Assembly: GCA_958430865.1 (NCBI GenBank)
Contig: CAUDNR010000413.1
Location: forward strand, 1-58,911
Direction: 5' to 3'
Source: Entrophospora sp. SA101
Lineage: Eukaryota; Glomeromycota; Glomeromycetes; Entrophosporales; Entrophosporaceae
Length of the DNA: 58,911 nt
Shown here: positions 6,364-49,277 of the stretch, one piece after another
How the letters are laid out: the number at the start of each line of letters is the position of its first letter
Position numbering within the stretch: the stretch's first letter is position 1
Program-made: the position numbers and the translations under genes
Notes under the pieces: model-generated
Seen by the model: the letters and a program-made list of their open reading frames with translations, nothing else
Database searches by the model: none
What the model was told of the DNA's origin: nothing

Positions 6364-9300
6364 TTATATGAAGATATTATCTAATCTTAAAGGATTTGAT
6401 TTTCCTGATTTACGTATCTCATAACAATACATACTACCATCATAATACATTAAATATAGAAAATAATGAAATAGTGATGGGTCTTGTAAATGATTATTCT
6501 TTACTATAAACATGCCTAAAAGACAATTTTAAATAACACGTTAATAGAATTATCAAATACAACAATTAATTAAAATAATGGCCTATAATTATTACCTAAT
6601 AATGATGCATTGGGTAAATTGGTTTCAGGCAAAAACTTTTCCTTTACAAAAGAATATTTTTTTTTGTCATTATTTGCAGCACTCCTACAATAATAATAAA
6701 AATAAATATTTAAAATATTTATAAAGTTTTCAGAAATTGCAATATGCGCAAATTCTAAATACATACATAACCAATCTCACCAATGCTACTTTTCCTTTTT
6801 GACTAGCCACAACAGCCAATGAAAATTCTGGGATCCACTAATCATCATAAATACAAAAAAATTTATTAAAAATAATTTTTTAGGGGAAAATTTTTATTTA
6901 TTTCTTATCTATTACCTCGACCATATTTAATCGATCAAAATCATTCAAACCAATAATATTCCTAGAATCACGACTTGAACAAATATTTTTCTCGTATAAA
7001 AGAATTTTCAAACCAGATATTGGATCTAAAAGAAACAAATCATTTTGAGAAGTGAAAAGCACAAGATGATCAATTGGCAATTCATTTTCTGTTTTAGCAT
7101 CCGATGATGATGATAATTGTAGCTGTGATTTAGACGATGTGGATAATATTTTGTTTTTATTGTTTCTAGTTGTTGTTGAATTTCTAATACTATTACTACT
7201 GCTAATACTATTATTGTCATTATTATCATTATTATTATCGTCTTGGTCTGATAATCTAATTGAATCGAACGGAATCATAAATGGCGAAGTTGGTGAACGT
7301 GTTGATCGCATATGTATAGTTTCAGCTTGATCATTTTGTACTGGATCAATTAGGATTCTAGGCCGTGATCGTCGCATAAGATTTGATTCGGCTTGATCAT
7401 TTTGATCTGGATCTATATCAATTGATCTGTATTCGCTAATACCCTCTTGCATTTGTACCCAAGATGGAATTGTGTGCATTATTTCACTACGAGGTGATCG
7501 TGGTATTAGTGGTGATTGTGATGATGATGGTAGTGGTGGTGGCAGAGGTGCTAGATCTGAATAATAATTTATTTCAGGCAAAAAATTATTACGATTATTG
7601 TTATTATTATTTTCTGTATTGCTTGTTGTCGCACTTAAACCTCCTAAAAATTTTAATAAATTTAAAATTAATTATATAAAAAATATTTAAGATTTGAATA
7701 GTTCTAGAAGATGGAGAATTTACCTGTAAATGAGGAATCGGGTGGAAGGTTAGTTGGCGGCGGTAATTCTGGAATTGGCGTGTGAATATATACTAGTTCA
7801 TCATTTATATCTGTATATACCCTGGGTGGTGATAACTCCAAGTTTAATATTTGCGAATTACCTGTAGATGCTATATATAATATACATGTATAATTTTAAT
7901 TTAAAATTTATTGTATATTTTATATATAAAGTTTTATAGAAATAATAATCATATACCATCAGAAGAACGTTCTGAAATTGATAATGACGCTTCTTCGTCA
8001 ATAGTGCCGTTGCTTATTTCACCACCATAAATATCATCGTCGTCATTCATTGCTTCATCGTCATGAAACCAACCTTATTCAAATTGAAAGTGAATTATAA
8101 TTAAACTTTAAATTGGGGGGGGGGGGGTTTGATAAAAAAAAAGGTATCAACGTAATATAAATTATCATTATTACCCCCGGTTCTTCTTTCCTCTTCCACT
8201 TCCACTTCCACTTCCACTTCCACTTCCAACTCTTCTTCACCTTCGTCATTTTGACTCTCTGATATTTGACTCTCGTCATCATTTTCATGCGTATTGTCAT
8301 AATACCCGTCTTCATATTCTGTTTCTGAAGAAGCCATAATATCTTGGTAGGCATGAATATTATTTAAAAGTTGAATTGCAACACGAGGATTACGAATTAT
8401 AATATTACCATTCCTTAGATTTTGTAGAATATCTGAAGTACGCGAATCGTCACGAATTGGTGATGCTGGGTTGTATTGTGGCGATGTTGGTGAATAATGT
8501 GTTGGTGATGTTGGGTCATAATGTGGCGATGTTGGCGAATATAATGGTGATGTTGGTGAATATGACGGCGATATTGGTGGTGAATATGTTGGTATTGTTG
8601 GCGCAAAATGAGGCGGTGATGTCGCTGAATAATGTGGCAATGTTTGTGCATGTTGTTGTGTTGGTATCGGTGGTGGATATTGTGGTGACCAATTTGGAGA
8701 CCAAGGTGATACACCTACAACTCTTCTGTTTCTTCTTAATTCAAATGGATCTTTGATAAATTCGATGTTAGAATTTACTTTTACAAAAGAATGTGTTGAT
8801 ACAAAACATGCCGACCATCCCCTTTACATAATTATGAATAAAAAAATAATAATAAAGATAATCATTACTATTATTGATAAATAATAATAGTACAGACACT
8901 AAGCAATCAATTACACACACACACATATATATCTTACCCATGACTACTAACTTTTCTTGTGCTGATTACCTCACCAGTTTTAACATTCCAAACTCTACAT
9001 GTTCGATCAAGACTGCAAGAAACTAAAAATCGACCACAATTACTAAATGAAATATTTGGAATATTGTGATTATGGCCTTTTAATATATATTTAGCCTCAT
9101 CATTTCCAAATTTATTTTGTAATGATGATAGTTCTGTTGTCGTTGTTGCGTATCTCATCTTCACTCTCCTTCCTCTTGATTGTTGTGAACCATCTAAACT
9201 ATCATCAGAATCATCATGATTTTTTTCAATTTGATCGTCATTATTTTCATCTGAATATATTGAATTCCCACCTTTTAGATCAAAAATGGTTATTTCATGG

Positions 9301-10128
9301 GAATTTGCACTAACTGCTAATAAACGTTTTGGTCCATTCAATGCTATACCCCAAGTCGATGTATTATGACTTTATTTATGATGTTATATGCAATGTATAA
9401 ATCATTTCCTTATTTCCTTGATAAATAAATACTTGATTAATTGATTTAAAAAGGTTGTATGTACCTGAAGTGTAATGGTCTCCTATCAAGATTTGATGTG
9501 TACCAAACCACAATATCACCAGGTTCATTAACGCTAACAAGAACTTCTTCGTAACCAATTTTTCCAACTTTTATAGCATTAATGACATGCCTCTTGAATT
9601 AAAATCAAAAAATAAGTTAATATTAAATGTATAAATAAAGGAAAATTTCATCATTTAATAAAATTTTCACCTCATTTTCTTCAGTTTCATCAGTATTATT
9701 GTTATTATTATCATAATCATAATCATCATCATTATTGTTGTTGTTGTTGTTGGGTCTTGTTAGTATTTTAATTGGATCCGTAAAAGGTTTTTCATTTAAC
9801 AAATTTAACCGATAAACATGAATTGTATCCTTAACAGCTAGATAAAAAATATTTTTTTGACATTCTGATACAGCCATCAAGTTCATTTTCTACATATTTT
9901 GACAAAAAAGTTTTTTGTTTAATAATTGTTTATATTGGGCAAAGAAGACTATATGTTATCAACATACCCAAAGTCGTAAATTCCTAACTGGAAATATTTC
10001 TCTCTCAAATATTGATCGTATCTATTGATCTCATAAAAATATATATAATTATTGTACCTGTCCACTATCAAAATAATTGATTTGATTAATAAAATATTTT
10101 TTACCTCTAAATGATGATATTCGTTCAT
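6364..10128 (-). CDS. CRT10-like WD40 protein, 12 exons, 935 codons
   Basis: Twelve exons with GT-AG introns keep one frame throughout: 10105-10128, 9968-10021, 9671-9889, 9465-9592, 8938-9369, 8175-8821, 7957-8073, 7724-7870, 6916-7643, 6767-6837, 6596-6684 and 6364-6515, totalling 2808 nt. WD40-like signatures include [35 protein letters not shown] and, near residues 240-278, [17 protein letters not shown]. Exon 10 adds [20 protein letters not shown]. This pattern fits the CRT10 family, whose yeast member regulates ribonucleotide reductase genes; the family name is recalled, not searched. Residues about 349-408 contain RNA polymerase II CTD-like heptads ([14 protein letters not shown]), followed by an acidic Val-Glu repeat and Asn-rich tracts. 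The start ATG at 10128 is the only good one, although exons 1 and 2 are short and less certain. A 5'-truncated mirror copy lies at 12617-15971. Confidence 0.8.
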
Positions 10129-12606: not shown

Positions 12607-12616
12607 NNNNNNNNNN
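12607..12616. other. assembly gap (10 N)
   Basis: Ten Ns lie exactly where the inner end of the right arm begins. A placeholder of fixed length is used at all three gaps, so the true distance and orientation across it are unknown. Confidence 0.99.
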
Positions 12617-15600
12617 AAATGAGGTGAAAATTTTATTAAATGATGAAATTTTCCTTTATTTATACATTTAATATTAACTTATTTTTTGATTTTAATTCAA
12701 GAGGCATGTCATTAATGCTATAAAAGTTGGAAAAATTGGTTACGAAGAAGTTCTTGTTAGCGTTAATGAACCTGGTGATATTGTGGTTTGGTACACATCA
12801 AATCTTGATAGGAGACCATTACACTTCAGGTACATACAACCTTTTTAAATCAATTAATCAAGTATTTCTTTTAATATTGATGAATAATAAATATGATATG
12901 AGGTTTAATTTTTCAAGGAAATAAGGAAATGATTTATACATTGCATATAACATCATAAATAAAGTCATAATACATCGACTTGGGGTATAGCATTGAATGG
13001 ACCAAAACGTTTATTAGCAGTTAGTGCAAATTCCCATGAAATAACCATTTTTGATCTAAAAGGTGGGAATTCAATATATTCAGATGAAAATAATGACGAT
13101 CAAATTGAAAAAAATCATGATGATTCTGATGATAGTTTAGATGGTTCACAACAATCAAGAGGAAGGAGAGTGAAGATGAGATACGCAACAACGACAACAG
13201 AACTATCATCATTACAAAATAAATTTGGAAATGATGAGGCTAAATATATATTAAAAGGCCATAATCACAATATTCCAAATATTTCATTTAGTAATTGTGG
13301 TCGATTTTTAGTTTCTTGCAGTCTTGATCGAACATGTAGAGTTTGGAATGTTAAAACTGGTGAGGTAATCAGCACAAGAAAAGTTAGTAGTCATGGGTAA
13401 GATATATATGTGTGTGTGTGTAATTGATTGCTTAGTGTCTGTACTATTATTATTTATCAATAATAGTAATGATTATCTTTATTATTATTTTTTTATTCAT
13501 AATTATGTAAAGGGGATGGTCGGCATGTTTTGTATCAACACATTCTTTTGTAAAAGTAAATTCTAACATCGAATTTATCAAAGATCCATTTGAATTAAGA
13601 AGAAACAGAAGAGTTGTAGGTGTATCACCTTGGTCTCCAAATTGGTCACCACAATATCCACCACCGATACCAACACAACAACATGCACAAACATTGCCAC
13701 ATTATTCAGCGACATCACCGCCTCATTTTGCGCCAACAATACCAACATATTCACCACCAATATCGCCGTCATATTCACCAACATCACCATTATATTCGCC
13801 AACATCGCCACATTATGACCCAACATCACCAACACATTATTCACCAACATCGCCACAATACAACCCAGCATCACCAATTCGTGACGATTCGCGTACTTCA
13901 GATATTCTACAAAATCTAAGGAATGGTAATATTATAATTCGTAATCCTCGTGTTGCAATTCAACTTTTAAATAATATTCATGCCTACCAAGATATTATGG
14001 CTTCTTCAGAAACAGAATATGAAGACGGGTATTATGACAATACGCATGAAAATGATGACGAGAGTCAAATATCAGAGAGTCAAAATGACGAAGGTGAAGA
14101 AGAGTTGGAAGTGGAAGTGGAAGTGGAAGTGGAAGTGGAAGAGGAAAGAAGAACCGGGGGTAATAATGATAATTTATATTACGTTGATACCTTTTTTTTT
14201 ATCAAACCCCCCCCCCCCCCAATTTAAAGTTTAATTATAATTCACTTTCAATTTGAATAAGGTTGGTTTCATGACGATGAAGCAATGAATGACGACGATG
14301 ATATTTATGGTGGTGAAATAAGCAACGGCACTATTGACGAAGAAGCGTCATTATCAATTTCAGAACGTTCTTCTGATGGTATATGATTATTATTTCTATA
14401 AAACTTTATATATAAAATATACAATAAATTTTAAATTAAAATTATACATGTATATTATATATAGCATCTACAGGTAATTCGCAAATATTAAACTTGGAGT
14501 TATCACCACCCAGGGTATATACAGATATAAATGATGAACTAGTATATATTCACACGCCAATTCCAGAATTACCGCCGCCAACTAACCTTCCACCCGATTC
14601 CTCATTTACAGGTAAATTCTCCATCTTCTAGAACTATTCAAATCTTAAATATTTTTTATATAATTAATTTTAAATTTATTAAAATTTTTAGGAGGTTTAA
14701 GTGCGACAACAAGCAATACAGAAAATAATAATAACAATAATCGTAATAATTTTTTGCCTGAAATAAATTATTATTCAGATCTAGCACCTCTGCCACCACC
14801 ACTACCATCATCATCACAATCACCACTAATACCACGATCACCTCGTAGTGAAATAATGCACACAATTCCATCTTGGGTACAAATGCAAGAGGGTATTAGC
14901 GAATACAGATCAATTGATATAGATCCAGATCAAAATGATCAAGCCGAATCAAATCTTATGCGACGATCACGGCCTAGAATCCTAATTGATCCAGTACAAA
15001 ATGATCAAGCTGAAACTATACATATGCGATCAACACGTTCACCAACTTCGCCATTTATGATTCCGTTCGATTCAATTAGATTATCAGACCAAGACGATAA
15101 TAATAATGATAATAATGACAATAATAGTATTAGCAGTAGTAATAGTATTAGAAATTCAACAACAACTAGAAACAATAAAAACAAAATATTATCCACATCG
15201 TCTAAATCACAGCTACAATTATCATCATCATCGGATGCTAAAACAGAAAATGAATTGCCAATTGATCATCTTGTGCTTTTCACTTCTCAAAATGATTTGT
15301 TTCTTTTAGATCCAATATCTGGTTTGAAAATTCTTTTATACGAGAAAAATATTTGTTCAAGTCGTGATTCTAGGAATATTATTGGTTTGAATGATTTTGA
15401 TCGATTAAATATGGTCGAGGTAATAGATAAGAAATAAATAAAAATTTTCCCCTAAAAAATTATTTTTAATAAATTTTTTTGTATTTATGATGATTAGTGG
15501 ATCCCAGAATTTTCATTGGCTGTTGTGGCTAGTCAAAAAGGAAAAGTAGCATTGGTGAGATTGGTTATGTATGTATTTAGAATTTGCGCATATTGCAATT

Positions 15601-23951: not shown

Positions 23952-23961
23952 NNNNNNNNNN
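23952..23961. other. assembly gap (10 N)
   Basis: Separates fungal F-box sequence from the segment with TGA=Trp genes. It truncates the coiled-coil gene at its 3' end. Confidence 0.99.
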
Positions 23962-24651
23962 AGGTTTATCTAGGTAAATTTTCAAACTGTTTTGTTTTTC
24001 TTCTACTAGTCTTTCATTAAGATTTTTCAAAGCTTGTTCATCCTCCTCTGATTGCTCTACCAACTTCATATTTTTTACCTTTTCTTCAGCAAGTCTTCTA
24101 ACAAAATCAAGCAACATGGTTTTGTTGTTATCAAGTTCTCCTACCAAGCTCTCTATTTTGTTTGCATGCTTTTCATTGCATCAATCCTCACAAACTCCCA
24201 CAGCATCTAAATGGCAACTAGCACTTACCTTTTCAAATTTGAGTTCTTTTTCTAATTTTTGATTGGTTTTTTCTAGAATAGTATTCTTTTCTTTTAGTTC
24301 TTTATTTTCTTGGTAGGTAAAACTAAAAGCTTCTTCATAATTTTGGGCTTCCTTACCAAAACTTTTAACAATATTTTCAGGAGTGAATCCATTGTTGAAA
24401 ACAACTCTTCCGATTTCAAGTCCATTCTTTTCGGGATAACTTATTCAACCATTTTCAGGTCAAGTAAATCTTTCTAAGGTTTTCAAAGTTACACCAGTAT
24501 ATTCTTCTATATTTTCAGTAAGACCATGAACCGCATTTCAAATTCTTAGTTTAAAATTCTCTTCCTTATCAGTTAATTGCTTTTCTAAATTGGCAATTTT
24601 GTCTGATAGTTCTTTGTTTCTTTCTTGGAGATTTGTTATTATGTTTGTCAT
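23962..24651 (-). CDS. coiled-coil protein using TGA as Trp, 3' end lost in gap
   Basis: From ATG at 24651 the frame runs 230 codons into the gap if TGA is read as Trp. In-frame TGA codons lie at 24538-24540, 24460-24462, 24445-24447 and 24181-24183, in contexts such as LRI-W-NAVHG, RFT-W-PENG-W-ISYPE and CED-W-CNEK. No TAA or TAG interrupts it. Residues 1-35 and much of 105-230 are charged heptad-rich coiled coil; the middle block is more globular. Code 4 usage is that of Mollicutes, including the Mycoplasma-related endobacteria of these fungi. I do not recognise the family. In the standard code it would be a pseudogene with four stops. Confidence 0.65.
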
Positions 24652-24841
24652 GATTTTCTTCTTTTAATATACTTATATCCTTAGGGTATGTTAAGTATAT
24701 AATTATTTTAGTACTTTTTTGCTTTAAAAGTGGAAAAAGCTAACAATATTTGTCAAAAGATTAAAACTTATTAAACATAATGACAGTAAGGGATAAATTA
24801 ACAAGTGACAAAGTCATAGAGGTGATTTTATCCTAAATATT

Positions 24842-26595
24842 TTATTTGTTGCCAGTATAGAATGGTCTTGGACAAGTAATATCTTTGTATTCATCTTTCA
24901 CAAATGGGCGAATATTATGATAAAGGTATTCTTGCCTTTTATAATCCAAAGGAGGAGGTGTTAACACTAAAATAGATAAAGCTCTAATTTCTTTAAAAAT
25001 ATCTGCTTTCTTGGTTTTCAATAAATTGAATTCAGCAAAAGGTCCATTAGCAACTTCTTGAACTTTCACTGTACCAAGGTTAGATGCTTCAAAAAGAAAA
25101 TGTTGATATCTCTGGATGCCTGGTAATTTCTTAAAATAAATTCCCAAAATGGCTTTAAGATCTAAGTATTGAAAACCTTTTCCACTCTCGTAACATTGAG
25201 CTTGATTCAATCCTGCTGGACTAGACTTTTTTATCAACTCAACCACATGATCCAGACAATCTACTCTGGTTCTTCTATACAGTTTTTTAATCAGGCCAAA
25301 ATTACCATCACATTTGAATTTGGTATGTCCTGGGATCATGAAATTCAATTTAATACTTTCATAATATCCACAAATTGCCAAATATAAATAAAATCAAATA
25401 GTGGTGTTATTTTTATTTCGTCCACCAGCATTATCACAAGTAATCTTTAAATGCTTTTCACCTTTATTCAATTTCCTAATTCCATCAAAAATCATACTAA
25501 GAGTACCATTAGGTCCTTTTCCTATAACTTCATCTTTATTAAGAACATAATTAATTTGTTTCCTTATTGCTTCATCTTGAATACCAAATAAATGAACTTT
25601 ACATGGACTAAGGTAGTAAATTTTACTTACTTGTTGAACTAAATGTGGCACATGAACATTTTGAGCTCAATCATAACTATAATGTGCAGTAGCATCAATG
25701 CTGCAATATTGTGTTTTACTCTTTGAATAATCTTGATTAATTAATTTTCTTTGTTCTTCTGCTAATTTGGTGTTTTTATTGTAATAATTCCTTTCTAATT
25801 TGGCTTTAGACAGATGTTCTTTAAATCTTTTGAGCAAATCTTTAGCTTCTTCCTCTTGGCAAGCATTGTAATGTAAACCATCTCTAAAATGTTGACAAGT
25901 ATCACACAAATTAGTCCTGGGACTCATAATTTGAATTTCTGGTGTCAATTGATGTCACAATTTTCTGAAAGCATCATACTTCAAAGATTTCGAATTACTA
26001 TCTTCTTCTAGACCAGCTAGAAAATCTCTGTGCACCGACTTATAACTCATTTCAACTGGTAAGAATACAATTGATTGAGTTATTTTATTGTTACTTCTTC
26101 CTGGACTTGGCAAACCATGGACTTCTGCATAATTTTCTAGAAAATTCTTTGCTACTTCTGCAACATTTTTATCAATCACCATTTTAGTTTTTCATTGAGG
26201 CATCCTTTTAATATTATCATGAACTCTTACTAAAAGACCATTGTTTATTAGATGATTTCTGATATTTTCAAAATAAGTTCTGCCAACTCCCAACATATTA
26301 AGATAAGTTTCTTGACAAAGAAGTGTATTGTGATTCCAATGATAGAAAGTTCTTTTATTAGATCTGGTTTTCTTTTTAAGGCATATGCTAGTTCTTGTTG
26401 ATCCACCATCCATTGCTTTCAGCTGGGCCATTAAAAATGTGTCTTGCTCTGTTTTAGAAAGGATTCTCTTAATTCTGCAAATTGTTTTTTGTGAATTCTT
26501 GAAGAGCAACCAAAACCACAACCACAACCTTTTTCTAAAAAATCAATTGCTTTTTGATATTCATTAGAACCATTGTATTCATTATTACTTTTCAT
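24842..26595 (-). pseudogene. DUF7869-like transposon-type gene with four TGA=Trp codons and one frameshift
   Basis: Five consecutive open segments are in one frame, separated only by TGA at 26192-26194, 25955-25957, 25667-25669 and 25394-25396. At two of these sites the family, as I recall it, has Trp (FRKL-W-HQLTPEI before the CDTCQHF motif, and NTTI-W-FYLYLAI after CDNAGGRNKNN); RMPQ-W and YSYD-W-AQNV are compatible with Trp. Hallmarks are CGCGFGC near the N-terminus, MLGVGRTYFENIRNHL, CDNAGGRNKNN, and GHTKFKCDGNFGLIKK. The start is ATG at 26595 (MKSNNEYNGS), but a one-base frameshift is needed near 26470. One Trp is TGG. The DUF7869 assignment is from memory. If read with code 4 the gene has a single lesion, possibly a sequencing error. 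Confidence 0.65.
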
Positions 26596-26884: not shown

Positions 26885-28192
26885 AATATATAAACCTTTC
26901 TTCCTTTAAGCAAGCAACATATTGTATCACTATTTTGTTAATCCAATCATTGAATTTTACTGATTCATCTTTTTTTTTTGGTTATATACATATGGTTGTT
27001 TTCTAAAGTTGTTAAATAAATAATCAGGAACAATAAAATAAAGTTGTGCTTTATTATCTTGTGATATTTGAAACTTCTCCAAGAGTTGTCTGAATCCTGC
27101 TTGAAGAATTGGATGTTTTTCTGCTACAGTGATTTGAAAAAAAATGTTTGGGGCTATTACAGCATCAACTGATTCAAAATTTTTGTTAATCGGATGACAA
27201 TACATTCCATTTTCAATTTCATCAATTGTTTTGAAGGTCATCGATGTTAATTGTCCAAAAGAAATAATTTCATCAGATGTTTCTCTTTCAAGACATCAAA
27301 TCTTAACTGAACAATTTTTAGGAACTATTTTGTGTGCAATTGATTCCAGCAGATGTCCTCTCAAGGCATCTTCAACAGGATATAATGGTGGGTGTTGGAT
27401 AAATTGCCATAATAAGGAATGGTATTGTTCTTCTAAATAATCAAGCACTTCATCACCAACATATTTTGATGCAAAATATAAAGTTGATTGTGTATAAGGT
27501 GGTAGTTGTATATAAATATTTGGATTGGTGGTATACTCAACAAGCTCTTCATTGACATTAAAAGGAAGGTTAATATGAATATGAACCAGCCAATGACTGA
27601 ATTTGTCACCCTCAGACTTCCAATGTAATTTAGAATGTCATTGCTACATTTTTTGATACATAAATTAATTGTTGCTTTTATTTTTCTATGGAATACATGT
27701 TGATCGTTCTTGGTATTCCACCACACATCAAGAATTTTTTTTGGTATCCCTCTTTTGTCCTTCCACTAAGGTTCAAATCCATGATTTCATCTTCATCCCA
27801 AGTAGGCATATAAAGGGTGCTGACTACAAATTCTCCTGGTTTTGTGAAATTTTTGACAAATGCTTCCTATGGTGATGACACCATTAAAATTTTGCACCAT
27901 TGATAATCATGATTAACAGGAGGCTTAATGCCACCAATAATGATCCATGCTGATTTATTACCAAAAATATACATTGTAAACACTTCTTCAGTGATTTTTT
28001 CACCTTTTCCAGCCTCAAAACACAAGTACCAAATAAGGTTTTCCCAATCCCTGGGTTTCCAGTAATAAGGAATCTCATATGTGTTGTATCATTCTTGATA
28101 ATTTTTTGAAGATCTTGATAACAACTTCTAATAAAAATTCTATGGGACTGAAAATTTGGAAGAAGTGGAAGCTCCAAGTGTGATTTTCCCAA
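26885..28192 (-). pseudogene. crinkler/RHS-type P-loop NTPase, decayed
   Basis: The order of motifs matches the NTPase and C-terminal part of Glomeromycotan crinkler (CRN)/retrotransposon-hot-spot-like proteins. ELPLLPNFQSHRIFIRSCYQ comes first, then the Walker A motif RFLITGNPGIGKT (about 28038-28070), YIFGNKSAWIIIGGIKPP, MPTWDEDEIMDLNLSGR, and near the C-terminus FFQITVAEKHPILQAGF and LYFIVPDYLFNNF. Lesions are a frameshift after Walker A (about 28010), TAG at 27867-27869, two frameshifts about 27600-27670, TGA at 27296-27298 (family residue uncertain, possibly Arg) and a frameshift in a poly-A run near 26970. CRN proteins can be secreted effectors, but here no intact product is possible. 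Confidence 0.75.
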
Positions 28193-29591: not shown

Positions 29592-31729
29592 ATGCGTTTA
29601 ATTCCTGTGCCAGACCTTCCTCCAGTTTTTTCTATTCGTGTTAAATATCCCCAGGGATCTACATACAAAGCACATGTGACATCGGACACTACTATAGAGC
29701 TATTGCTGAAGTCCGCTAAAGAATATCTTGAAGAAGAACAAAAAAATTATGACTATAAGCTTGTAAATAGTAAGCAGGCCATGCAATATACTGATACTCT
29801 TAAGAAGCTAGAATTAAAAGTGGGTGTTTATATACAAAAATATTTCTGAAATGAATTTTATTATAAAAAAGATTTGTTTATAGAAGGGAAAGAAAAATAC
29901 ATACACGCAATATCAATCAATAATTTTTATTATTATTAGGAAGGGGATTTAGTTGAAATGAAATTGATTCCATTTGAAATTTATGCAAAAATGCAAACTG
30001 GTAAAATTATAAAACTTCATGTGACTGCCAGAAACACTGTTTCTGATATTAAAAAAATGATTGAGGATAGTGAAGGTATTTCTCCTGGTCAACAATGTCT
30101 TACTTTTGCTGGCAAGAAACTAAGAAATGGGTGTACCTTGAGTGATTGCAATATTCAAAATGAGTCCATAGTGAATCTTGTGCCTAGATCACATAGAAGT
30201 GGGAGCATGAAAATTTTTGTGAAAATAACTGGGAAAACTCTTACTCTGTATGTAGAACCAAGTGACACCATTGATAGTGTAACAGAAATGATAGAAGATA
30301 AACAAGGTATTCCTTCTGATCAACAACGGCTTATTTTTGCTGGCAAGGCAATGTTAAGTGGACGTACCTTGAGTGATTACAATGTTCAAAAGGAGTCCAC
30401 ATTGCATCTTATACATAGATTATGTGGAGGAATGTTTCAGGAAACCAGTGGACGCCTAGAATTCAGTGTATTACCGCCACTTACACAATACCTGCAGCTG
30501 CAAGCTCCTGAAATACATATGCAAGGTAGATCTCATGTTGGTATTGTTTGTAATCATTGTGGTAAAAAAGAATGGAAAGGTGCAAGGTAAAGTAATTAAT
30601 TAGATTAGCCAATTTTTGTTACAAACCATCAAAATATTTATTTTATTTCATCGATGCAATTTATTTAGGTTTAACTGTTCAACATGCCTTGATTATGACT
30701 TGTGTTATGAGTGTATCAAAATGGCCAACTTGCTTCATGATAAGCAACATAATTTTGTGGAATACTTGTATCCAGTAAATGAAAAAGATACTCCAAAAAA
30801 AGATATCACAACTAATCCTATTACTGTATTACCAATACTTCCAACAACAAAAGAAGAGATGTTGAATTATTACATGAGGAGGAAAAGCGAAGAATGTCAC
30901 CAGAAATGCAACAACAATATTACAAAGTTGGAAGCGATCCCACATCTGGCAAGGACTGGATGGATGTCACTGATCAAATGCAACATGAGTTAGTTCGAGA
31001 GTTTGGTTACTCGGATGAAGCTGTGCAATTATTAAGACGTGCTCCACAACTTTATCAAGGTGAAAAGACATTCTCCTTTTTTTTTGTCATTGTATTATTC
31101 TTAGCACTATTCATTAATTTTCTTTATTTTTTCCAGATGATCCTGAATTTTATAATACTCAATTATATGTTCGCAACAACATTGCTTCTGTTGGAGACCT
31201 CAAAGAAGGAATGCCAGCACCTGATTGCCCACTGGTTTCCTTAAACACTACAACAATGAATGTTGAAACTATCAGTTCACCACCAAAAATAACTCAATTG
31301 CACTCTCTTTATAAGCAAGGACGACCTTTTGTTCTTCTTGGTGGATCACATACTTGTCCTTTATATCGTTACATATCTCATGTGCTTAATGACATTTATG
31401 AGAAATATCAAGGATATGCAGATTTCTACATGATTCAAATTCGTGAAGCACATGCCAGTGATGTTTGGCCTATTGGTAATATTGTTGATGTTAAAGAGCA
31501 CCGTACATTGGAAGAACGATTAGCAGCTGCACGTGAAATGGTTAAAGCTACTGATCTGAAGATTCCTGTGCTTGCTGATACAATGGATAATAATTTTTTG
31601 AAGTTGTATTCACCTTGGCCATTCCGATTTTTTGTAATTGTAGATGGTATTTTGAAACTTGTTGGAATGCCAAAAGAAGCACGATATGATACAACAGATC
31701 TAGTCAATTGCTTGGACACTCTTATTTAA
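29592..31729 (+). CDS. ubiquitin-like / ZZ zinc finger / deiodinase-like fusion protein
   Basis: Four exons: 29592-29819, 29940-30586, 30669-31059 and 31137-31729. Residues 1-76 form a poorly defined ubiquitin-fold-like domain. Two ubiquitin-like domains follow at about 83-160 and 166-240 ([20 protein letters not shown], then [16 protein letters not shown], ending RLCGG). A ZZ-type zinc finger at about 281-315 is split by intron 2 ([13 protein letters not shown], then [17 protein letters not shown]). The C-terminal 170 residues resemble iodothyronine deiodinases in a thioredoxin fold: GSHTCPLY with Cys where animals have selenocysteine, then [12 protein letters not shown] and [14 protein letters not shown]. 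Near 30860-30880 the frame must shift by one base (LNYY versus [14 protein letters not shown]), so the gene is either damaged or mis-sequenced there. The function is unknown; redox chemistry on a ubiquitin-binding or ZZ-ligand partner is possible. Confidence 0.8.
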
Positions 31730-34085: not shown

Positions 34086-34284
34086 TAGTTGGGATTAGGT
34101 CTTTTTTAGTGGATTTATTGATTTTTTGATTTTTTTTGATGGTAAATTTTCAGTATCAGAGATTGATCTTTTTACAGAAGACATTTTTAAGCAAAATTGG
34201 AGTTTTTTTTAATAATTTTATGAATAGTGTGAGTTCAGTTAATTAATGGATCAAAAAAAATGGTATTATTTATATGGGGCATGC

Positions 34285-34335
34285 TGCAACAAAACCAGAC
34301 AAAGTGAACATTGGTATTACTATGAATTTCAGGGC
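34285..34335 (+). repeat. dispersed repeat R1, short copy
   Basis: GCAACAAAACCAGACAAAGT, then GAACATTGGTATTAC and AATTTCAGGG, nearly identical to 44205-44253. Confidence 0.75.
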
Positions 34336-34459: not shown

Positions 34460-35839
34460 TTATATAAATCATTAATTTTTTTTGTTATTTTATAAAATTC
34501 AAATTCCTCTATCAAATGAACATTACTGACATTTTTAAGATTCAAATTATTTTCATAAGAATCTTGGCAATAATAACAATAAGTTTCATTATTATATGAT
34601 AATTGTAAATCATCAAAATCTACAATCACTTCATGAAATTTTATATTATCAATAATGAGATCAATAGACTGTTCAGATGAAATATTGAATGTTTGAAAGA
34701 TTTAACTCTACTTAATATTGAATTATTTAGTTGATTTTCATCAATTTTGAAAATAAAACTTTGTTTTGTTTCAATATAATAACTATCATTTGAAGATTTT
34801 TCCTTTATGTTATGGCAAACTGGGTTGTAACCACCTACTGATTCACCAATTAGCCCGAATTGAGCGATTCCGCCCAGTCTGGATAATCGTCATTAATCTC
34901 TACTAAATAAAGTTAAATAAATATGAATGTGCTACGGATTAAAAATAAAAATAAGAATAGATTAATAATAATAAAAATAAAAATAAAAAATAGAAATAAA
35001 ATTTAATTTGACCCGAAATTAAAGGATTCGGCCAAATTATCTTCGTCATCGTCTAATTCTGGTAACAATATTATAGCACTTTTCCTCAAAAATTAATCTC
35101 CCAAATCCATCTCAAGTGCCTTGCAAAATTAATTGAAAATTATAAGGTATTTCATCTTCTTTATAATTGTATTCTTTCAAATCAATCCAACTGGATATTA
35201 AATATTTCATTCTTGAGTTTAATAAACTTCCCTCTTTTATTCTTATATGTTTTGATCATCTTCACTGAAAAGATCCATAATTGTCTTATTTCCAGTATCA
35301 ATAATGAAACAAATGAATTAAACTGGTAGAATACAATTGCATATTAGTTCGTGGTCATGCTAACAACTCTATGAAACATATCTCAAATAATCAGACACCC
35401 ACCTTTCATATGGTAAATCCTTAGCATATTCATACAATATGTCTTCTACATACTTATTTGAAGGTAATTTCCATTTCTTATCAGAACACATCTTTAGATA
35501 ATTTGATTTAAACTTCTGTTTCATTTCATTGATTGCTCAATCATTGGATATATTTCAGGAGAGAATTACTGTATATACCTTGTCATTATCATCTATTGTA
35601 TTGAAACCTTCCAATTTTATAATTGTTTCATCAGTATAGTCGTCATCCTCTTCATAAAAATTATTATTATTAAAATGAGAAAAATGTTCTGTAAAATATT
35701 CATTAACTACTATACCTTCATCATCATTCTTTTTATTAATGCTTTCAGTCATAATATGTAACTTTTTAACTGGTTCCACATCAAGTTCATCGAGAATACC
35801 ATTGGTTTGTTGTTTGTATGCTGCATCAAACACATTCAA
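34460..35839 (-). pseudogene. lineage-specific hypothetical gene, decayed
   Basis: Fragments of one or two ORFs in changing frames: an N-terminal acidic part (35555-35839), a middle piece with SDKKWKLPSNKYVEDILYEY (about 35390-35530), and a C-terminal piece with EVIVDFDDLQLSYNNETYCY and CQDSYEN (about 34470-34660). The middle phrase is of a kind I associate with unnamed Rhizophagus protein families. Function unknown. Multiple frame breaks and stops make an intact product unlikely. Confidence 0.4.
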
Positions 35840-36773
35840 TGCTGTAATTTGACTTTTGCACTTGGAAGCCGTCTTTAAGAATAGACAATTTAAAATACTG
35901 CATCAAATTATCCATACAACAACCATTAAAATCACAATAACTACCTTTTTGAGTGATAATTTTTCATCAAGTTTAACTAATTCCATGAGTTCCTTCACCG
36001 AAGGCGATTTTTTCTAAGATGAAAAAAAAATATAAAAGCTTATGTTTTGAAAAAAACCCTGAACGTATGTTGCACGAGGAACGACACCCCCCTAAGGCTG
36101 TGCAAACCCCTGGTTCAGGTAAAAAAAGAATAGAAACAGTAATGATCTGTTGTATGAGAAAATTGCCATGTTTCGTCGCTCTTCATCTTTATCTTTATCT
36201 TGAATATTTTTTAGTAACGCTATATATCTCTACTTCATGATCGCGAGTAAATCATCAGGTAGATTAGTGGTAGACCAGAAAGCCTTCACTGCCAGCAGAA
36301 AACCAGGAAACGACCATGAAATATGAGGTGTTTCTTCAAAGTAGTAGATTGCCACCGAATCTAAATATTTTGAAATTTTCAGTAAACGTCGAGTTACTTA
36401 ACAGTTAACGAATAAAACAGTAAATGAGTTCAGACGTATCAAAAAATTTTTTTAGTAGGACTGTTCATTTCAAAGCTACTCAATAAATTTGTTATTAAAA
36501 AAAAATTTTTTTTATATATATGCGTGTTTATTCGTGTCAAAATAAAATTTGGTTTTTTTTCTAAGATTAGAAAAGTGTAACGTTGATCATAGCAAACAAA
36601 AAAAAATTATTATTACCAAAAATAGGGTTGGCTTGCTTACAAAAATTTATTTTATATATATTTGCGAAAAAAAGTTATTTGACCATCCAAATATTCCTTG
36701 TGCTAAGTAGAAAAGAATTGAAAAAGAATCAAAGCAATGGATGAGTAGCACACCTTTATTCTGCTTTCTTTTC

Positions 36774-36934: not shown

Positions 36935-37006
36935 TAAATATCATGATCACATTACATTTGTGATGACTAAATTTGATCCCTGAAATACCAATATTCGCTT
37001 TGTCTA
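36935..37006 (-). repeat. dispersed repeat R1, copy linked to decayed ORF
   Basis: Minus strand: AGACAAAGCGAATATTGGTA, TTTCAGGGATCAAA and ATGTGATCATGATATTT, in the same order as the R1 copy at 44195-44337. Confidence 0.65.
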
Positions 37007-37759
37007 TATAAAGATGTTATTTATTTTATGGGATTCTTATCAATAACGAACCTTCCATCTTTATATGTGATTTTTTATTTGCGTTTACTAAGATTATAAG
37101 GAGAAATCAATTATGATTATATAAAAAAAGTGAAGTTGTTATAGAGATTTCGTTATAGAGAGTGTGAACCGTATATACAAGTATGCATATTTTATTTCTT
37201 CAATATAAAGCTTTACTATTATGTATCAAAGGATATTTAAGATTCAAATTTTAAATAATAAATTCAAATACGTATATTTGTACATCATGCAAAAAGAAAA
37301 ACACAAAAAAACTCTTTTAAAGTTGTAATGACAAAGATCTTTTACTAAAATGTAAATGTGATAATTGCAAATGTTGATCAAAGTAGAATTTCCATTATGC
37401 TGACTAAGTGACTTGTTAATTTAAAGAAATCTAATCAATGTGGTACGAAATACTTACTAATTTACTAATTTGATTTTATTTGATTATATTAATATACTAT
37501 ATATATAATATCTAACATATTTGTAAGTATCACAATAATTAAAAATCGAGATCTACGTTGATTTATAATAAAAATTTTATTCCTAATCATTACTAATGCA
37601 TCTTTCATTAGAAAAAAATTTATATATAAACGATGTCTTCTTCGATTTTTAAAAAAAGTTTTTTAATTAAAATAACAACAACAACAATTAAATAACAATA
37701 AACAAAGAATTGATATATATTTCATCTAATTACATCCAATTCAAATTAAAACTGAAAAA
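37007..37759. promoter_or_regulatory. upstream region of the LUD gene
   Basis: AT-rich non-coding sequence; a relic similar to the GTTATAGAGAGTG element at 56646-56759 lies at about 37137-37170. No specific promoter motif was recognised. Confidence 0.35.
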
Positions 37760-38554
37760 ATGACAATTGTAAACAATCATACCGATCAAACTGCCAGTTC
37801 ATTGCTTAAGAGCGATCCCAAACTTTCGTCTGGCGAAGTAAAAGTCGATACGAATAAATATGGAAAATTAGCAACCGAAGAAACAATAGCAAAAACCAAG
37901 GAGGCATTAGAAACCAAAGGTCATCAAGTTACTGTGTTGAATACAAGTGAAGAAGCATATGAATTTTTGAAAAAATTGATTCCTGCAAATGCCTCGGTTA
38001 ATAACGGACATTCCACCACATTGGAAGAAATTGGATTTATCGAATATTTGAAAACAGCAAAAGAATGGGTTAACGTTCATGCAGAAATTTTGGCTGAAAA
38101 AGATTTTGCAAAGCAAAGTGAAATACGTAGACTCAAAGGTTACAACGTTGATTATTATTTGTCTTCTGCTTCTGCTATTACTGAAGATGGTGTAATTGTA
38201 AGTATATTTATATAAATGATCATTATTATGGAAAATTATTATTCATATATTATTATTGTTATCATTTTAAAACAGATTGGGGTTGATGCAAGCGGTAGCC
38301 GTGTTGCAGCATGGGTAGATACAGCCAAAACTCTTGTGATTGTAAGTGGTACAAATAAAATCGTAAAAGATGCTAATGAAGCAGAAGAACGTGTAACAAA
38401 ATACTCTTTTGAACTTGAATCAGCACGTGCGAGATTAGCTTATGGAGTTCCTGGCAGTCAAATTTCTAATTATGTCTCGATTAGGTCTGCAAATCCTTTC
38501 AGTCCAACAAAACGTGTCCATGTTGTCTTAATTAAAGAAGTCTTGGGATACTAA
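37760..38554 (+). CDS. LUD-domain (LutC/YkgG-like) protein, two exons, 238 residues
   Basis: Exon 1 is 37760-38197 and exon 2 is 38276-38554; the intron begins GTAAGT and ends ACAG, phase 0. The frame gives a complete LUD (DUF162) domain: KTKEALETKGHQVTVL, then NGHSTTLEEIGF, YYLSSASAITEDG, and after the intron IGVDASGSRVAAW, VSGTNKIVKD and a basic C-terminus with SPTKRVHVVLIKEVLGY. Bacterial LutC takes part in lactate oxidation. Eukaryotic stand-alone members are of unknown role, so a metabolic or redox function is only inferred. AATAAAAAT about 105 bp after the stop may be the polyadenylation signal. It is the most ordinary and intact gene of the window. Confidence 0.88.
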
Positions 38555-44194: not shown

Positions 44195-44337
44195 ATGGGC
44201 ATTCTGCAACAAAACCAGACAAAGTGAACATTGGTGTTACCAAGAATTTCAGGGATCAATAGTATTACTGGTGTAATGTGTCATGATATTTGTCCAGACA
44301 AAAATACCTAATATGAAACTCATACATTAGGTCTACC
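44195..44337 (+). repeat. dispersed repeat R1, most complete copy
   Basis: ATGGGCATTCTGCAACAAAA, CCAGACAAAGTGAACATTGG, AATTTCAGGGATCAA, TCATGATATTTGTCCAGACA and ATATGAAACTCAT are followed directly by the ATG of a 69-codon ORF. This copy defines the order used for the family. Confidence 0.75.
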
Positions 44338-44619: not shown

Positions 44620-45232
44620 TTACTTTCTTATTTTCAATCAAGATCATCTCTTAGGTTCTTCAACTTCAATTTGAGCAATTTGACCATTCTGTTGATCTTT
44701 CAATTTCCTGTTTTCTTCTTCTAGTTGTTTAATTTTTTCTTCTAAACTCTTTATCTTATCCAACAGTTCTTGCTTTTGTCTTTTACTTCACTCCTCAGAT
44801 TTCTCTTGAAACTTGATTACTTCTTCCCTTTCAATGTCAAGTAACAGTTAACTCTTCTCATAAAGAGTTTATTTGCCATTCATAAAAAGCAGGCTGACTT
44901 ATTTCTTCATCAGGTAAGAGGTGAAGTTCCTTTTCTTCCATATCTTCTTTGTATTTGACACAAAAACAAATATATTTACCATTAAGTACATCAAGGTAAT
45001 GTCTAGTTTGTAATCTACCGCACCTATTACACTTTAACAATTCATCCTTTTCAAATTTTTCCTTACAATTTTCACAAACTACATCATCTGCAACATATTT
45101 GCCATTCATTTTAATACGACCCACTATTTGATTAACAGACTTATTATCCTCTCCATAAAGATTAGAGCAAAAATCACAAGTTTTTCAACTTGTTCTTTCT
45201 AAATCTAAAAGCATGCAAGTTAGTTCTCTCAT
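44620..45232 (-). CDS. zinc-ribbon plus coiled-coil protein using TGA as Trp, one frameshift
   Basis: From ATG at 45232 (MRELTCMLLDLERTS) the frame has TGA at 45185-45187, immediately before KTCDFC, then several CxxC pairs (CDFC, CENC, CNRC) with CFC nearby, which suggests zinc binding. TGA at 44858-44860 follows YEWQINSL. A one-base shift near 44845 leads to a coiled coil (KSLEEKIKQLEEENRKLKDQ) with TGA at 44788, 44644 and 44638, and a genuine TAA at 44620. Five TGA and no internal TAA/TAG indicate genetic code 4. One Trp is TGG. No assembly gap lies between here and 40263 or the window end. Family unknown. Confidence 0.6.
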
Positions 45233-47540: not shown

Positions 47541-49277
47541 CCATTAATGATATTTTCAATTGGTACTTTCACATGTCACCTGGATTAATAATATGGATTA
47601 ATAATATGAATTTATCATAAAGAATTAATTTTCAGTCTTATTTTTATCATTTTTATCCCGTCCGGTTGGCCTCGAAGGATTAAACACCAGATGAACTCGA
47701 AGTTACCTGGTGCCCCAACACACTGGCTTTGTGGCTCAACTCAAAGTCTTGAATGATAAGAATTCTCAAAGAACCTTACCACGCCACTTGTGTTTCCAAC
47801 AAATAAAGGCTCATACTTATCTCCCTATAATTATGCAGCAGTAATTGTGCTTTGTGGCGTTGCTTCTTGCTTTCTCCTATGTTAGCGATAGTCTCAAGTG
47901 ATGTAATATAAGATTCTATTTTGCGGTAATGCCACATTTTTCCAGAAATCGGTAATGACCTTTCGAAATATTCGTGTATCTGTTTTTAGGCATAAGTGAA
48001 AAGTCTGAAATTTATGATTATGCATAAAAAAATCGAAAAGTTCATCCGTAATACTACTACTTTAGTTTTATGAGAGTTCCATTTGAAAAAATTGTTTTCG
48101 CAAAGAAAATGCATAAATGTATTATGACACGAGTTTATTAATCGAATTAGTATTAGGGTATCAACCAGGGGATTTACTAATTGAAGGAAATAATCGACTG
48201 TGTTTGTAAGATTTGTTATACAACATACAAAATTTATATATATCACACAAAATTTTTATGCAAAACAATAGAATAAATGTCAAAAAACATGAATTTGTAT
48301 ATAGTAGTGAATGGGTTCTTTATTTTTCGTATGTTAAATTTGTGACGAAGCCGTCGTTTTGAATAATAAGAAATTTACTATGAAATTAGCCCCTATACTT
48401 TTATAAAAAATTCCCCTGGTTGATAAAAGAACTGCGAATTAATGATATATACAATAATGATATTAAACCCTAAAATTCTTGGTAATACAAATGTTCACTT
48501 TTGTCTGGTATGCTCCATATAGATTTAATTGAAAGCTTCACTTCGGCTGATATACAAAATTAGGAAGGGCCAATTCTTTGATTACTCTATTTAGAAAGAA
48601 TTTCAATCCCTCAAATAGAAATCTTCCGATAATGAATAATAGAAATGAGTGATCGATTATAGTAGAGACAAGTTGAAAGATTTTTGCCTATAACTCTTTT
48701 CTATTCTACTCTCGTGAATGTGAATTTTTAAAGCTTTCATGACAGATAATAAAATATACAGCCTCAAAATAAACCAAAGATTTATCGCGCATTAGGAAAA
48801 TAACGTAATAGCTGATGGGAATTCAAAAGGCTGCGTATGAGATACGTTTTTTTTTAAAGGTAAAAAGATTAAATTTAAATAATCATTCTTGAACCAGAAA
48901 GAAACACAAGGAAACAAAAGTAAACTATACAATATTATTGTATTTTCAATATTTGGATAAGCGGATGGAGCAACTAAAACTACCTAAAAAAGAAAGACAT
49001 GCATAATCTTACGATTAGAATTTCATTATTGACCTTTTATATTGTTGACAAACTTGTCGCCACAATACAACAATTTTTCATAACATTCAAAAGTTTCGAT
49101 ATAAATTTAAAAAACATGAATAATTATTTTATAGAAGCGAACCATGCTTTCTCCATTTAGACGCATTCCATCCATGTAGAATGCATTTGACTTTGACTTT
49201 GGAAACCCAAAATTACACTAAATTCAAAACGAAAAAGTATTTGTCTAATCTATTATTAAGCATCTAAGCCACAATTA
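47541..49277. other. non-coding stretch
   Basis: No gene supported; a degenerate copy of repeat R1 lies at 48465-48520. The segment near 47650-47770 is less AT-rich than its surroundings but has no coding or tRNA fold that I could find. Confidence 0.4.
48465..48520 (-). repeat. dispersed repeat R1, copy
   Basis: Minus strand reads CATACCAGACAAAAGTGAAC, ATTTGTATTACCAAGAATTT and TAGGG, matching the core of R1 with one inserted A. Confidence 0.65.

Follow-up and report, generated by a model that had tools for sequence, protein, structure and literature searches.

How can a gene on a fungal contig be open only when TGA is read as tryptophan, and which ribosomes would translate it? This question is raised by a 58,911-nucleotide stretch of an Entrophospora sp. 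SA101 contig (CAUDNR010000413.1, here C382). The whole stretch is called the window hereafter, and the contig belongs to a 101.3-Mb assembly of 2123 contigs. Two neighboring genes of this window, encoding a coiled-coil protein (gene A) and a protein with a DUF7869 domain (gene B), are interrupted solely by TGA codons.

Organization of the Window

Gene B extends from 26595 to 24842 on the minus strand. Its four in-frame TGA codons are located at 26192–26194, 25955–25957, 25667–25669 and 25394–25396, and TAA and TAG are absent between 26461 and 24845. Gene A also contains four in-frame TGA codons (24538–24540, 24460–24462, 24445–24447 and 24181–24183) and no TGG, TAA or TAG. The initial annotation had correctly noted that TGA alone interrupts both genes. 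It had also described the segments of gene B as exactly in frame, which is true from 26461 on. The initial ~50 codons of the gene (26595..26440) belong to a different frame, and the window copy contains two frame-changing indels. The parts of the element found in the window are as follows:

23952..23961, no strand: ten-N gap, through which the window copy lacks its 3′ part, including gene C and the last portion of gene A; fuller copies go on with gene C and the right end
24651..23962, minus strand: gene A, coiled-coil protein, open only with TGA as Trp and truncated in 3′ by the N gap
24842..26461, minus strand: gene B, main frame, putative DDE-type transposase with a DUF7869 domain (PF25273, predicted fold, four TGA as Trp)
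26440..26595, minus strand: start of gene B (~50 codons), out of frame with the rest through a frameshift in the window copy, located by tblastn with residues 4–53 of protein P0003
26621..26633, minus strand: left terminal motif ACAAAGTGAACAT, 25 nt ahead of the gene B ATG
34276..34334, minus strand: right end of a third copy or derivative, adjoining ATAT, with an opposing degenerate end near 36991
44197..44259, minus strand: right end of a second copy (64-nt terminal repeat, 96.8% over 63 nt), adjoining ATAT
44623..45178, minus strand: gene C relic of the second copy, with a C-terminal KRWSWLKI in which both Trp are encoded by TGA
48468..48501, plus strand: opposite end of the second copy, facing 44197; the two ends bound a ~4.3-kb region

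Runs of N occur in the window only at 12607, 23952 and 40254, and no gap is present at the junction between the element and the right-hand sequence. Pfam matches were obtained for a ubiquitin-like gene (29940–30590), a deiodinase-like gene (31118–31729) and a LUD-domain gene (37730–38215), the ubiquitin-like and iodothyronine-deiodinase-like genes adjoining on the plus strand (29940–31729). Minus-strand ORFs at 26957–27643 and 35369–36013 are likewise open only in code 4 (two and three TGA, respectively); they gave no Pfam match at E 0.001 and may be broken fungal genes. Near-identical ORFs are carried by both arms of a long inverted duplication (6898–9371 and 12963–15437) around the N gap at 12607, for which a real palindrome and an assembly artifact are both possible.

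Copies and Architecture of the Element

A DNA search of the assembly with gene B returned at least 42 matches in 39 contigs, namely the window and 41 others at 86–90% identity. Scoring covered 40 of the 714 candidate places, which makes this count a lower bound, and a single copy may account for more than one match. The 20 loci ranking next after the window were fetched with 7.5 kb of surrounding sequence. In readable copies the gene order is B, A, C, with all three genes on the same strand. The gene C protein contains Cys pairs and a coiled coil, and ends with K[RK]W[SP]WLK; gene A matched no Pfam family above its cut-off. Gene B is conserved while genes A and C are variable. For gene C, the other matches among those listed in this genome are 28–89% identical to the query, with a second piece at 93%, a pattern that would fit diversifying pressure on A and C.

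The motif ACAAAGTGAACAT, located upstream of gene B, returns in inverted orientation after gene C, inside a 64-nt end which closes with CATGCCCC; it is mainly this motif that the left end has in common with it. Repeated ends, as looked for with a DDE transposase, are present, the 64-nt end being found in 13 of the 20 fetched loci and, near full length, at two places of the window. A genome search with this end gave at least 40 matches at 97–100%, query included (40 scored of 1356 candidates). ATAT lies beside it in 9 of the 13 loci, two of which have one common flank. Inspection by eye revealed an 8-bp repeat, ATATTAAA, on both sides of one copy (L019), and no flanking repeat of this kind in the other copies inspected in the same way.

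A 2.4-kb stretch found upstream of several copies was considered as a part of the element and rejected, as it is a separate repeat. This 2–2.4 kb repeat (L025:100-2500) often lies just upstream of gene B and also occurs alone in many contigs; on its opposite strand, a short exon-like start ahead of GTAAGT was noticed by eye. Shine-Dalgarno motifs, also sought by eye ahead of the gene starts, were weak and inconsistent. One locus, L014 (contig C1028), is a mosaic: its left flank is 100% identical to L016 (C204), its right flank 100% identical to L025 (C1574), and part of its inside is identical to L017 (C964). It is probably a repeat-collapse chimera, or possibly a real cassette exchange. Chimeras of this kind are thus probably present in the assembly, and not every copy counts as independent.

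Gene B Encodes a Putative DDE Transposase

The assignment of gene B to the DUF7869 family, proposed in the initial annotation, is well supported by PF25273, with scores of 58.7 bits for the window gene and 62.6 bits for P0003 against a curated cut-off of 26. The gene B protein is predicted to fold like a DDE transposase, with an RNase H-like fold and three conserved acids, D313, D392 and D434 (P0003 numbering). Among solved structures, no convincing sequence match to gene B was obtained (best E 0.26).

TGA Codons at Tryptophan Positions

In order to follow individual codons, 21 gene B copies (the 20 fetched loci and the window) were projected onto the codons of the L025 copy, with reading continued beyond frame-changing indels. 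All 105 cells in the five Trp columns are either TGA (58) or TGG (47), with no other codon. The remaining 12,039 covered codons contain one TGA, six TAA and no TAG. Chance is excluded, since the other copies give TGA or TGG at every one of these Trp cells.

Two columns, 218 and 314, are TGA in all 21 copies. This uniformity is not special in itself, 77 of 163 other two-fold columns being also monomorphic. Both are Trp in the 11 standard-code rows of the arbuscular mycorrhizal (AM) fungal clade (10/11 at column 218, the other row being gapped, and 11/11 at column 314), Trp 218 being found in two metazoan rows as well. Two of the four TGA codons of the window gene (25955–25957 and 25667–25669) therefore fall on old Trp positions, which bears out the earlier proposal that at least two of them stand where the family has Trp. 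In the same 11 rows, columns 91, 139 and 405 are not Trp (F/Y, N and F, respectively).

A wider protein search with gene B, of which 77 matches are listed, gave 247 TGA, 27 TAG and 79 TAA in frame. Among these matches, 41 contain TGA only and 36 contain TAA or TAG; none has TAA or TAG without TGA, and 74 of the 106 TAA/TAG are concentrated in 11 matches. The other genes follow the same usage: 11 gene A ORFs from other copies (2773 codons) contain 56 TGA and 12 TGG, and 11 gene C ORFs (2194 codons) 34 TGA and 15 TGG, although the selection of these ORFs for being open in code 4 means that they cannot show the absence of TAA or TAG. One gene A holds seven TGA, and in the C-terminal motif of gene C (16 copies) 30 of 32 Trp codons are TGA. 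By comparison, five standard-code DUF7869 relatives in this genome have a single TGA among 39 TGA and TGG codons, at a terminal position. Collectively, these data show that the gene family uses code 4 (TGA = Trp) in all three genes.

Selection on Gene B

Under code 4, the dN/dS ratio of gene B has a median of 0.146 (range 0.088–0.240; 210 pairs), with median dN and dS of 0.051 and 0.356, and it is still 0.09–0.24 between nearest neighbors. The 21 copies contain six TAA or TAG against 162–236 expected if the tip branches were neutral, an expectation derived from an assumed, approximate 0.144 substitutions per site. L014, L016 and L017 contain three of the six TAA. Frame-changing indels are found in 16 of the 21 copies, and none in the five others. 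Gene B has thus recently been under purifying selection in code 4.

Repeat-induced point mutation (RIP) or decay would be expected to turn TGG into TAG as well as TGA and to leave dN/dS near 1, in contrast to the values found (TAG in 0 of 105 Trp cells; dN/dS 0.15). RIP fails as an explanation because a RIP-like change would give TAG, which is absent at the Trp columns. The view of the initial annotation that the TGA codons result neither from random decay nor from RIP is supported by these counts.

Residence on Fungal Contigs

Nine flanking ORFs from 6 of the 20 fetched copies were given to Pfam. Eight of them matched a family at E up to 0.001, and seven of these passed the curated cut-off; protein kinases, kinesin and Tc1-type transposases are represented. 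In four loci (L012, L018, L020 and L027), the sequence between the eukaryotic-type flanking gene and the element is free of N; in L022 a ten-N gap separates them. The element is thus a dispersed family on fungal contigs.

Its composition is also distinctive. The observed/expected CpG ratio is 0.02–0.16 in the 21 gene B copies, 0.23–0.39 in five standard-code DUF7869 stretches of the same genome, and 0.93–1.13 in four bacterial stretches. Since five other genes of the window range from 0.28 to 1.50, low CpG characterizes repeats and is not a general mark of nuclear DNA. The depletion extends to codon choice, with NCG codons representing 4/1821 in the element, 4/418 in standard DUF7869 genes and 69/454 in five bacterial ORFs, and CGN representing 49/578, 32/77 and 91/118 of the Arg codons, respectively. 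Across the 21 copies, CpG is present in any copy at only 22 alignment columns and fixed in none, so that its loss is common to the copies. Transposons of R. irregularis are described as CpG-methylated (PMC8647823). We read the low CpG of the element as long residence among fungal repeats, and not as loss after recent insertion.

Endobacterial Contigs in the Same Assembly

Code-4 bacteria, which the initial annotation had invoked as context, are indeed represented in this assembly. One bacterial contig (C293) uses code 4 and encodes an EF-Tu with TGA and a topoisomerase IV subunit A with eight TGA; another (C72) carries a further EF-Tu. A third (C1735) encodes a tRNA(UCA), an AP endonuclease and an AAA protein with seven TGA, and a fourth (C792) two tRNA(UCA) and TGA-bearing ORFs. 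C1643, C2074 and C2028 were classed as bacterial only by a tRNA-Trp(CCA) with an encoded CCA end. The two different EF-Tu genes suggest at least two bacterial lineages. A miss with DnaA (PF00308), which had first suggested an absence of bacteria (the DnaA control was found in 13 of 14 genomes), proved misleading as EF-Tu is present, and was consequently not used as evidence. Endobacterial contigs are known from Mucoromycota assemblies, for which a lack of co-phylogeny is mentioned (PMC11423566).

A TTCA tRNA pattern gave 38 matches versus 17 for a reversed control. Eight were read and three are tRNA genes (tRNA-SeC with anticodon tca according to ARAGORN); these three tRNA(UCA) genes all sit on bacterial contigs. 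With a TCCA pattern, 17 matches were obtained versus 9 for the control; among the eight read, three are tRNA-Trp, and each of these has its CCA end encoded. The matches read revealed no nuclear tRNA-Trp gene, the patterns being such as would miss an intron-bearing one, and the tRNA-Trp of baker's yeast as a DNA query had no match in the assembly, which is uninformative. Trp codon choice (TGA:TGG) is 24:0 in five bacterial ORFs and 7:3, 5:3 and 5:1 in others; given the latter ratios, it is a weak contrast between element and bacteria and was dropped.

Gene B, gene C, the Moeniiplasma protein described below and the element end had no match, among those listed, on the seven recognized bacterial contigs (~591 kb). 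Among the matches listed, the element thus does not behave as a chromosomal gene of the Mollicutes-related endobacteria (MRE), and its CpG content is also unlike theirs. The initial annotation had suggested that the segment is endobacterial DNA; this part of it is not supported, the element being dispersed on fungal contigs, without a listed match on the seven bacterial ones, and unlike them in CpG and Arg codons.

Relatives of the Element

A protein search with P0003 retrieved 157 proteins, and named relatives include proteins from Ambispora leptoticha, Geosiphon pyriformis, Diversispora eburnea and Gigaspora rosea. The closest named non-fungal relative is protein I3273_02745 (P0038) of a Candidatus Moeniiplasma glomeromycotorum MAG, in line with the comparison proposed at the outset. 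It is 54% identical and lies inside the clade of TGA copies but, unlike the element, it is 329 aa long, lacks the N-terminal part and is known here from the protein alone.

A 48-row tree with midpoint rooting separates two clades of AM-fungal proteins, one in standard code (100/97) and the other containing the TGA copies (100/99). Inside the latter, the sister group (97/93) of the element clade (100/99) consists of the Moeniiplasma protein, one protein from Ambispora and two from metagenomes. The five copies of this assembly included in the tree form a single clade (96/89). As judged from sequence comparison, the element shares common ancestry with the protein labelled Moeniiplasma. End branches are as short as 0.03–0.08 for Ambispora P0010, Geosiphon P0021 and Diversispora P0018, and 0.24 for two other Ambispora rows. 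Diversispora belongs to a different order from Ambispora and Geosiphon. Such short branches across fungal orders would point to horizontal spread of the element, with shared contamination as the alternative.

Gene models of other AM fungi appear to be affected by the same codons. In 15 chosen models, residues are missing at 38 of 61 Trp cells versus 1613 of 6722 other cells, as if annotation had stepped around TGA. In the Geosiphon model P0074, a kinase is joined to gene B and the model ends immediately ahead of Trp 218, and Geosiphon gene models with similar breaks are located on contigs of up to 1.19 Mb.

For genes C and A, 110 and 64 relatives were found; almost all stem from metagenome contigs only a few kilobases long, and those with a fungal name are from Entrophospora candida and Funneliformis caledonium. 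Searches of 50,697 phage and 72,556 plasmid records with P0003 were negative, and no relative of it was confirmed in genome contigs or viral contigs. Two DUF7869 proteins labelled Thioglobus and Beggiatoa (P0055 and P0063) cluster with metagenome proteins in a part of the tree remote from the AM-fungal clade; their bacterial labels may reflect contamination or transfer.

Where Could the Element Be Translated?

As a best explanation, put forward tentatively, the element would be a nuclear-resident, three-gene DDE transposon kept functional in code 4 and most likely translated by endobacteria. Gene B would be the transposase and A and C accessory coiled-coil proteins, the repeated ends completing the element. 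It would reside in the nuclear genome of an AM fungus, its genes being kept functional in code 4, and ribosomes that decode UGA as Trp would make its proteins, the likeliest being those of Mollicutes-related endobacteria sharing the cytoplasm. Translation is placed there because these bacteria read UGA as Trp, have tRNA(UCA), and lend their label to a related protein. DNA or RNA of the element would have to reach the endobacteria, and the transposase made there would in turn have to work on the DNA of the nucleus; transport of the element from one fungus to another by the endobacteria is also possible. The absence of listed matches on the recognized bacterial contigs speaks against a bacterial stage in this host. 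The full scenario of a transposon stored and copied in the nucleus, translatable only by the endosymbiont and spread between fungal orders by this symbiont, is possible but rather doubtful.

Less probable, and unlikely in our view, is that an unsampled endobacterial lineage, plasmid or phage, poor in CpG, forms the source pool, the nuclear copies being recent dead insertions. Low dN/dS even between the nearest copies and the few disabling changes fit recent insertion from a selected pool, and a Moeniiplasma homologue exists. Against such a pool stand the CpG depletion, which the 21 copies have in common and which is realized in synonymous codon choice (NCG 4/1821), in contrast to the bacterial genes read, the single clade formed by the five assembly copies in the tree (96/89), the lack of a P0003 match in phage or plasmid records and of a confirmed one in genome or viral contigs, and the absence of a listed match on the recognized bacterial contigs. 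The fungal cytosol itself could read UGA as Trp, by a suppressor or near-cognate tRNA or by efficient readthrough, in agreement with the position on fungal contigs, the CpG signature of fungal repeats and the need for a transposase to act in the nucleus. This is improbable: of the five standard DUF7869 genes that were read, one is terminated by TGA, the pattern search (8 of 38 matches read) located its three tRNA(UCA) genes on bacterial contigs, and seven TGA in one gene A would make leaky readthrough inefficient.

Fungal mitochondria also read UGA as Trp, and the code would fit translation in this compartment, as for mitoviruses. We regard this as very unlikely in view of the homology to fungal transposon-type proteins and to the Moeniiplasma protein, and of the large fungal contigs on which the copies read are located. 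Ordinary decay (pseudogenes, RIP), or a chimeric assembly of endobacterial DNA, would account for the TAA or TAG in 36 of the 77 listed protein matches, for the frame-changing indels in 16 of 21 copies and for at least one mosaic contig, but is hardly tenable: no Trp cell among 105 is TAG or another codon, dN/dS is 0.15, similar breaks occur in Geosiphon models on contigs of up to 1.19 Mb, and CpG is unlike that of the bacterial contigs.

Relation to Known Systems and Implications

The closest standard-code counterparts of the element are AM-fungal DUF7869 proteins such as R. irregularis P0026, which have the same domain, the three acids and Trp 218 and 314. P0026 is 39% identical to P0003 and differs in using the standard code; long open standard-code DUF7869 genes are also present in this genome. 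Mariner/Tc1 elements, IS21 (IstA) and retroviral integrases differ from it in their N- and C-terminal parts as well as in their accessory genes. Mitoviruses and the nuclear copies derived from them are likewise fungal genetic elements in which TGA encodes Trp, unlike in the nucleus, but mitoviruses are RNA viruses with a polymerase, whereas the element is a DNA transposon with a putative DDE transposase. Gene transfer from fungus to endobacterium was reportedly the subject of work by Torres-Cortes in 2015. A literature search of titles and abstract openings retrieved no description of such an element, and the term DUF7869 was absent from the papers of the collection searched.

One would expect a nuclear gene to use the nuclear code, yet this multi-copy transposon, located on fungal contigs, has been under selection in another code, which is that of bacteria in the same assembly. 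The case also cautions against taking every TGA-bearing ORF on a fungal contig for contamination. If confirmed, the proposed mechanism would explain the broken DUF7869 gene models in several AM-fungal annotations, would make TGA at Trp positions a mark for tracing such traffic in any fungal assembly, and would mean that the translation system of an endosymbiont can support a parasite of the host genome.
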